A stretch of DNA of 64,000 bases, taken from assembly GCA_013791955.1 (NCBI GenBank), contig VMSW01000007.1, positions 558,001-622,000 on the forward strand. Direction: 5' to 3'. The position numbers and the translations under genes are program-made. A model generated the notes under the pieces. That model saw nothing but the letters and a program-made list of their open reading frames with translations, was not told the origin of the DNA and searched no databases. The DNA is from Propionicimonas sp. (GTDB lineage: Bacteria > Actinomycetota > Actinomycetes > Propionibacteriales > Propionibacteriaceae). This document shows, piece after piece, positions 13,905-14,037 of this stretch. Within the stretch, counting starts at the first letter, position 1; every line of letters begins with the position of its first letter.

Positions 13905-13967
13905 ATGGCTGCCATGTCATGGGCGCGACTCCTGCTTGGTTGCCGCAGCGAGGCCTCGAAGTTCTGA
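13905..13967 (+). CDS. leuA leader peptide with three consecutive Leu codons
   Basis: A short open frame upstream of leuA encodes MAAMSWARLLLGCRSEASKF (20 aa) from the ATG at 13905, or 17 aa from the ATG at 13914. Codons CTC, CTG and CTT at 13929-13937 are three leucines in a row, the hallmark of an attenuation leader. The frame ends at TGA 13965-13967. Its second half encodes one arm of a hairpin whose other arm can instead pair with the leuA ribosome binding site. Translation or stalling here would report leucyl-tRNA supply. No homologue is claimed; the call rests on codon content, position and structure. Confidence 0.82.
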   Translation: MAAMSWARLLLGCRSEASKF

Positions 13968-14037
13968 TCAGGCCTCCTCGCTGCGGAGTTCTTGATGCGC
14001 CTGCAAACCCGCACGTAACCACAGCGAGGAACTCATG
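13943..14037 (+). promoter_or_regulatory. Leucine-responsive RNA switch controlling leuA
   Basis: CCGCAGCGAGG (13943-13953, inside the leader frame) pairs over 11 bp with CCTCGCTGCGG (13976-13986). The same middle segment, TCCTCGCTG (13975-13983), can instead pair over 9 bp with CAGCGAGGA (14022-14030), which contains the leuA ribosome binding site before the ATG at 14035. The two structures exclude each other. A ribosome stalled at the Leu codons leaves the first hairpin free to form and exposes the leuA site; efficient translation would disrupt it and let the site be sequestered. This mechanism is inferred. Confidence 0.75.

Follow-up and report, generated by a model that had tools for sequence, protein, structure and literature searches.

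A LEU element ahead of leuA in Propionicimonas and its relatives: a probable leucine-responsive translational attenuator with target-dependent codon runs

The DNA ahead of leuA in a Propionicimonas sp. genome carries a member of the LEU element family, which is already known, and this element probably functions as a leucine-responsive translational attenuator that works through a leaderless leader peptide. It lies in a stretch of 64,000 nucleotides (contig VMSW01000007.1, positions 558,001 to 622,000), referred to here as the window. Read directly, the interval from the end of the preceding gene to leuA consists of a short open reading frame (ORF), a hairpin, and a ribosome binding site (Table 1).

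Table 1. Features of the LEU element and leuA in the window
Feature	Position	Strand	Remarks
-10-like hexamer TAACAT of probable promoter	13901..13906	+	Puts the 5' end at about 13913-13914
Leader ORF, MSWARLLLGCRSEASKF and stop	13914..13967	+	17 codons; probably leaderless; ATG 13905 would give a longer form in the same frame
Three consecutive Leu codons CTC CTG CTT, proposed sensor	13929..13937	+	135 of the 138 leuA/leuC loci whose frame could be read have LLL no more than 7 codons from P2
P1 5' arm (base stem)	13930..13941	+	Partner 14017-14030; present in minimum-energy fold; coevolves (z -5.9, 107 loci)
P2 5' arm, CCGCAGCGAGG	13943..13953	+	11 bp with 13976-13986; also encodes the RSEA residues of the leader
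P3 pseudoknot 5' strand CAGGC	13969..13973	+	In the P2 loop; partner 13999-14003
P2 3' arm (13976-13986) and anti-Shine-Dalgarno arm, alt C (13975-13983)	13975..13986	+	9 bp with 14022-14030
P3 pseudoknot 3' strand GCCTG	13999..14003	+	Partner 13969-13973; covariation
leuA Shine-Dalgarno region	14017..14030	+	Partner of both P1 and alt C
leuA, 2-isopropylmalate synthase, 596 aa	14035..15825	+	Pfam HMGL-like, IPMS_D2, and LeuA_dimer; NCBIfam 2-isopropylmalate synthase above cut-off

The leader frame opens at ATG 13905 or at ATG 13914 and runs to TGA 13965-13967, giving 20 or 17 codons, with 67 bases between its stop and the leuA ATG. The original prediction, made from the letters of the window, had described this frame, its three Leu codons, and its distance from leuA, and direct reading found all of them in place. 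It had also described an 11-bp arm downstream; P2 indeed consists of 11 Watson-Crick pairs, and no stem of 11 arose in 500 dinucleotide shuffles of 13905-14037. The segment termed alt C is fully complementary to its partner in the Shine-Dalgarno region, and the best duplex of the P2 3' arm with that region was -20.8 kcal/mol, a value as low as which was found in 1 of 2,000 mononucleotide shuffles of the region. The base stem P1 reached -14.3 kcal/mol in the window, as low as in 313 of 2,000 shuffles, so that P1 alone is unexceptional there. In the nested minimum-energy fold, which includes P1, P2 was partly rearranged into an inner GAGGCCT/AGGCCTC helix that excludes the pseudoknot. The fold of the whole stretch was moderately stable relative to shuffles (z -1.88; 11 of 200 as low).

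The position of the 5' end bears on the length of the leader. Among 146 loci, 122 had a TANNNT hexamer 33 to 48 nt ahead of P2, and the first ATG or GTG followed the last base of the hexamer at a median distance of 8 nt. The TAACAT of the window fits a leaderless start at ATG 13914, and the leader is therefore probably 17 codons long; ATG 13905 is an unlikely start. A scan for sigma-70 promoters with two hexamers found none at the leader.

Several further observations concern the ends of the leader and its surroundings. Most close relatives stop directly after the P2 5' arm (CCTAG or CCTAA); over 13953-13967, the window and L002 read CCTCG at that place and continue for three more codons to TGA, and L039 continues for one more codon. 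The motif GGAGT(T), at and just past the end of P2 (13985-13991 in the window), is widely kept among relatives; ACTCC in the Leu run and GAACTC ahead of the leuA start are both possible pairing partners for it. Upstream of the element, 13726-13848 of the window holds four head-to-tail copies of a sequence of about 26 nt (core TTCGACGGGCTCAGCCAACTGA) plus GAGCTTGTCGAAGG. Repeat-like sequence of this kind recurs at 18788-18887 and 63728-63896 and was not seen upstream in L002, a relative with a 99% identical LeuA.

The LEU element was named by Seliverstov, Putzer, Gelfand, and Lyubetsky in 2005 for a structure ahead of leuA in most Actinobacteria (PMC1262725). As described there, a leader ORF with a Leu run is combined with either a pseudoknot or an alternative hairpin, and the Leu run forms a base stem with the leuA Shine-Dalgarno sequence (PMC1262725). 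The window shares each part and the position ahead of leuA: an upstream ORF with a Leu run, a two-helix pseudoknot between leader and leuA that is seen in the covariation of P2 and P3, and a base stem seen both in the minimum-energy fold of the window and in coevolution over 107 loci. Both are likewise without candidate attenuator parts. The rearranged P2 with P1 in the nested folds may be the published alternative hairpin on the same base stem. Pairing of the P2 3' arm with the Shine-Dalgarno sequence (alt C) is absent from the text of PMC1262725, the figures of which may show it. No Rfam family matched at the element up to an E value of 5, and 20 loci of all target classes gave no gathering-level match; a T-box or other Rfam family was thus rejected for want of a covariance-model match.

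Comparison with relatives showed that the element is conserved as a unit. leuA was present in 41 of 41 genomes (that of the window and 40 relatives). The leader comparison used 39 loci, with L001 being the window; L016 and L018 end before the leader, leaving 37 loci with intact upstream DNA. All 37 (the window and 36 relatives) had the leader and the hairpin; 36 leaders had LLL, and the other had LL. A pseudoknot helix was present in the register of the window in 35 of the 37 (one with only 4 bp). Covariation was scored in two alignments, A1 with 31 and A2 with 33 of the 36 distinct sequences; L017, L021, and L022 were excluded from both for their long inserts, and L028 and L029 also from A1. 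In 33 of the 36 distinct sequences, 99.7% of the P2 cells and 92.0% of the P3 cells were paired, and both partners had changed at 3 of the 11 P2 pairs and at 3 of the 5 P3 pairs. Together, the two helices were paired in 97.3% of cells, versus 40 to 58% with the partner slid. Four of five covariation measures were reached by none of 500 shuffles and the fifth by 7 of 500. An alignment of leuA leaders in which the Leu codons are kept and the arms covary was what the original prediction had called for, and these relatives supply it.

Two covariance models extended the comparison: R1, a model of the element core trained on leuA leaders only, and R2, a broader model. R1 matched upstream of leuA in 79 of 80 named loci, the 80th being without upstream DNA; the named loci and the other relatives overlap as sets (for example, L040 and L008). 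In a sample of the phylum, R1 matched in 70 of 396 genomes, with a few weak matches, and R2 matched in at least 191 of 197 genomes of the class, that of the window included. Neither model found a second copy in the genome of the window, which gave a single strong match (E values of 3e-16 with R1 and 6e-14 with R2) and next-best matches with E values of 0.35 (R1) and 0.22 (R2). The element was also present in Propioniciclava flava (L042) and Propionimicrobium lymphophilum (L045), which we take to belong to the same family as Propionibacterium acnes. The 2005 study had not found it in P. acnes (PMC1262725).

The two arms that can cover the ribosome binding site were examined by comparing the duplex energy of each locus's own arm and Shine-Dalgarno region with that of permuted partners. 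The set of 146 loci comprised the 37 described above, 50 of the 79 named loci, and 59 of 67 fetched leuA and leuC regions, the latter two groups being those that passed an automatic finder of P2 and the gene start; 107 were left after removal of near-duplicates, and 138 had a readable frame. Over the 107 loci, with swaps that are not fully free of relatedness, own partners paired better than permuted ones both for P1 (z -5.9; 0 of 5,000) and for alt C (z -7.1; 0 of 5,000), versus z -0.2 for a control segment in the P2 loop. Taking the better of the two arms in each locus gave z -7.7. P1 was the stronger arm in 64 of the 107 loci and alt C in 43, and the correlation between the two was 0.07. 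In the genus of the window (n = 20), the signal was that of alt C (z -4.5; P1, z -1.6), whereas in other families of the order (n = 16) it was that of P1 (z -2.9), with nothing for alt C (z 0.2). Both were weak in the named loci (n = 46; z -1.7 each), and both were clear in the regions fetched from the phylum and class (n = 59; P1, z -4.5; alt C, z -5.2). The alt C duplex of the window is within the strongest 3%, and its P1 is average. Thus, the ribosome site pairs with segments that a leader ribosome would cover or release, as in a translational attenuator. The original prediction had envisaged a two-state switch in which the P2 3' segment pairs instead with the leuA ribosome binding site. 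The leader and this alternative pairing stand in the comparison, both over the 107 loci and within the genus, but the prediction had missed the pseudoknot and the base stem P1.

Coevolution of P1 would also be expected if the Leu run were kept only since CTCCT-type codons make a good anti-Shine-Dalgarno arm, with the peptide and leucine irrelevant, and the codons used (CTC, CTT, and CTG, with TTG in just 2 of 471) are compatible with such a constraint. We regard this explanation as very improbable: L014, L015, L019, L021, and L038 keep LLL despite a weak P1 (-7.2 to -10.5 kcal/mol), and leaders of leuB and of regulatory-domain genes, described below, carry Val and Ile codons at the same place.

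Sensing of the codons by a translating ribosome was modeled by moving a 29-nt ribosome mask along the leader in the 138 loci with a readable frame, using nested folds, with the pseudoknot outside the model. The cost of opening the ribosome site was lowest with the A site 12 to 21 nt before P2, where the Leu run sits; there, it changed by about -1.5 to -1.7 kcal/mol relative to the state with no ribosome, and with the A site from +6 nt on, it was 0.1 to 0.6 above the free level. For leuA (n = 128), the mean opening cost was 8.6 free, 7.1 at Leu, and 9.1 at the stop, and stalling lowered the cost in only 86 loci; in 107, the stalled state cost less than the ribosome at the stop. The corresponding means in the ten leuC loci were 6.4 free, 5.3 at Leu, and 5.5 at the stop; the stalled state was lower than the free state in 6 loci and lower than the stop state in 5. 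In the window itself, the change was small (8.8 with no ribosome, 7.9 with a Leu stall, and 9.6 kcal/mol at the stop), and the unpaired probability of the Shine-Dalgarno sequence did not rise (0.19 free, 0.18 at Leu, and 0.17 at the stop). In the folds of the window, alt C emerged once the ribosome reached the third Leu codon. A stalling switch is therefore supported by the model on average over the 138 loci and weakly or not for the window alone. The leucine-starvation logic of the original prediction fares the same way, agreeing with the 138-locus mean but gaining little from the nested fold of the window.

We infer stalling, the direction of the response, and translation as the controlled step along the following lines. 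Transcription would start at about 13914, and the 17-codon leader would be translated from the 5' end of the transcript. When Leu-tRNA is scarce, the ribosome would wait on 13929-13937, covering the P1 arm while the P2/P3 pseudoknot stays folded; both anti-Shine-Dalgarno arms would then be kept off 14022-14030, and leuA would be translated. With ample leucine, the ribosome would move on as far as the stop codon, which lies within the P2 loop, and would open P2, and the freed P2 3' arm would pair with the Shine-Dalgarno sequence as alt C. After release of the ribosome, P1 and P2 would refold, and the Shine-Dalgarno sequence would be hidden again. Codon-sensing translational attenuation of this kind fits best because it explains the two competing arms, the Leu run before the pseudoknot, the stop in the P2 loop, and codons that follow the target.

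Leaders that resemble this one have been described in other actinobacteria. Streptomyces lividans TK24 LeuL1 (MRFGLLLLSCRGEGL) lies ahead of leuA and, in the part of PMC8079986 consulted, is given from transcriptome sequencing (RNA-seq) as leaderless and without a typical terminator of the intrinsic kind; it differs from the window in genus. The accessible part of PMC4046766 lists the leuA leader of Corynebacterium glutamicum with four Leu codons. By its title, a study of mycobacterial polycysteine leaderless ORFs (Canestrari 2020) deals with short leaderless ORFs in which a codon run controls an operon; those are cysteine-responsive attenuators, unlike the Leu run of the window, and the likeness rests on the title. 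According to the portion of PMC13236596 consulted, the ilvB1NC leader of Mycobacterium tuberculosis (an LVVI upstream ORF) resembles that of the window in having a short actinobacterial ORF that senses supply by a branched-chain codon run, but it uses a terminator and antiterminator with a U-tract, and it precedes a different gene.

The M. tuberculosis case raises the question of whether the leader controls Rho-dependent termination or a pause of RNA polymerase at P2 instead of ribosome access. Apart from the control of ilvB1 in this manner (PMC13236596, in the portion consulted), such transcription-level attenuation would suit a T-rich stretch that follows GGAGT(T), two bases past P2, in some relatives (for example, L020 and L038), as well as leuB-type members (see below), in which no coevolved pairing with a Shine-Dalgarno sequence was detectable. 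We consider it unlikely. A search for intrinsic terminators (a GC hairpin followed by a T-run) found none in 13700-14200, in agreement with the original prediction that control is not by classical termination; a terminator made of P2 would, by inference, form upon stalling, which is the wrong direction; and coevolution of two arms with the Shine-Dalgarno region would be left unexplained. Codon-sensing control of translation is preferred.

The same scaffold was also found before other genes. Many genomes had second R1 matches, and 118 regions, mostly from genomes with more than one match, were fetched among the matches listed, so that the proportions of classes are no census. The gene that follows was identified by comparison with reference ORFs; the LeuB, IlvE, LeuC, and LeuD references were verified by NCBIfam, and LeuA_dimer references were checked by Pfam, with 2 of 4 above the cut-off. 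By script, the regions comprised 37 leuA genes, 20 leuA paralogues (under 56% identical to the LeuA of the window), 10 leuC genes, 33 leuB genes (with ilvE behind in 31), 10 genes for a stand-alone regulatory domain, and 8 regions with no target recognized. The last group consists of L207 to L210 (E values of 0.003 to 0.01), L260, L261, and L273 (3e-5 to 6e-4), and L249 (5.5e-7). L249 (G553 contig 277) looks like a decayed version of the element; it lies close to the intact element of the leuA paralogue L248 and is followed by no recognized gene. Leaders L161 and L226 were misframed by the script and L251, L267, and L200 were left uncalled; the counts are kept as computed.

The leuC(D) members with an LLL leader directly upstream were all from one family of the class, f11 (L157, L160, L161, L163, L166, L170, L175, L205, L235, and L237). 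The leuB-type members were L168, L171, L172, L189, L215 to L220, L222 to L234, L240, L245, L246, L251, L254, L256, L262, L265, L267, and L268. Stand-alone genes for the LeuA regulatory domain (PF08502) lay behind the scaffold in L190, L192, L194, L195, L198, L200, and L269 to L272; 2 of 4 tested were above the Pfam cut-off, and the nine readable leaders were of the Leu/Val type.

The codon run of the leader varied with the target. Counted by loci, which are not independent events, LLL was present in 61 of 67 leaders of leuA, leuA paralogues, and leuC versus 0 of 40 leaders of leuB and the regulatory domain (Fisher P = 2e-23). Ile was present in 30 of 31 leuB leaders versus 6 of the 67 leuA, paralogue, and leuC leaders (P = 4e-18, again by loci and not independent events), and Val was present in 9 of 9 regulatory-domain leaders and also in 9 of 20 leuA-paralogue leaders. 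In the main, then, leuA and leuC leaders had Leu runs, leuB leaders had Leu/Val/Ile runs, and regulatory-domain leaders had Leu/Val runs, with typical leaders being MRFGLLLLSCRGEGL (leuA), MRAPRRLLLRCRGGASI (leuC), MRSVFVLIDCRGEA (leuB), and MPRRLVVATRSGV (regulatory domain). Because IlvE acts in the metabolism of all three branched-chain amino acids, a Leu/Val/Ile run before leuB-ilvE makes sense. The strands of the pseudoknot coevolved in leuA (n = 49; z 5.4), leuB (n = 32; z 9.9), and regulatory-domain (n = 10; z 2.8) loci and not significantly in the ten leuC loci (z 1.1).

Codon runs that vary by target are absent from the text of PMC1262725, which favored a bound protein; nor does that text hold members before leuC, the small ORF linked to leuB, or genes for the LeuA regulatory domain. 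No such members are described in the literature surveyed; Lopatovskaya 2010 and Craster 1999 lie outside that survey and may overlap with these findings. Classical attenuation was set aside in 2005 over mutation data from Streptomyces coelicolor (PMC1262725). One passage, citing Craster 1999, states that mutations of the S. coelicolor leuA leader had some effect inconsistent with classical attenuation, and another, with the same citation, that mutations of the Leu codons were without influence on regulation (PMC1262725). The starvation logic of the original prediction is at odds with these results as reported there. The reading preferred in 2005 was a bound protein, with the orthologues of M. 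leprae ML1624, which has a DEAD-box helicase domain, proposed for this role (PMC1262725).

If a regulatory protein controlled leuA by binding to the pseudoknot, with the leader ORF incidental, the reported lack of effect of the Leu-codon mutations (PMC1262725) would be expected, as would coevolution of the pseudoknot in three target classes. A bound protein, however, has no need for three in-frame Leu codons in 135 of 138 loci or for a codon run that shifts from Leu to Leu/Val/Ile to suit the downstream operon, and P3 lacks a significant signal in the ten leuC loci. Because the codon runs depend on the target, codon sensing is favored over the protein-binding model of 2005, which we judge to be quite improbable. 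Three points count against attenuation: the S. coelicolor mutation data as cited in PMC1262725, the weak effect in the window, and the leuB branch.

The leuB branch has an additional component. Between the element and leuB, a small ORF of 20 to 53 codons with a Shine-Dalgarno-like match (4 or 5 of 6) was present in 33 of 33 regions, a count that holds partly by construction, since the pattern was written after the ORF lists were viewed and some ORFs match only its end. A usual signature is like AVQxALDLRDNGG; the ORFs often contain RDNGG or have DDN as their last residues. Examples that were tested had no Pfam or NCBIfam family above the cut-off, and the small ORF had no match in the genome of the window, in a search whose silence shows nothing. 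The codon arm and the P2 3' arm were rejected as candidates for hiding the Shine-Dalgarno sequence of the small ORF, with coevolution unsupported (n = 29; z 1.3 and -1.2). Because no coevolved pairing was detected in the leuB type, hiding of a ribosome site cannot be the only use of the scaffold. Either the pseudoknot works differently in these regions, or the target there is something other than translation of the small ORF.

The 2005 study did not settle the way in which the LEU element senses leucine, and it passed over the Leu codons for a bound protein. With its target-dependent codon runs, the shared scaffold is in effect a swap experiment done by nature; it argues for ribosome stalling, and codon swaps can now test the question directly. 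The apparent regulon is widened to leuC, to LeuA regulatory-domain proteins, and to the small ORF before leuB, and alignments are now available for a family absent from Rfam. On balance, it seems likely that the LEU element represents one application of an exchangeable, class-wide sensor of branched-chain amino acids, in which a leaderless leader with a codon cassette matched to the target (Leu before leuA and leuC, Leu/Val/Ile before leuB-ilvE, and Leu/Val before the stand-alone LeuA regulatory domain) is joined to one conserved pseudoknot. If this is true, leuA would be governed by a three-state switch in which the 3' arm of the pseudoknot competes with the codon run for the ribosome site, either of them hiding it, and in the leuB branch, the same pseudoknot would govern a conserved, unannotated protein of 20 to 53 residues.
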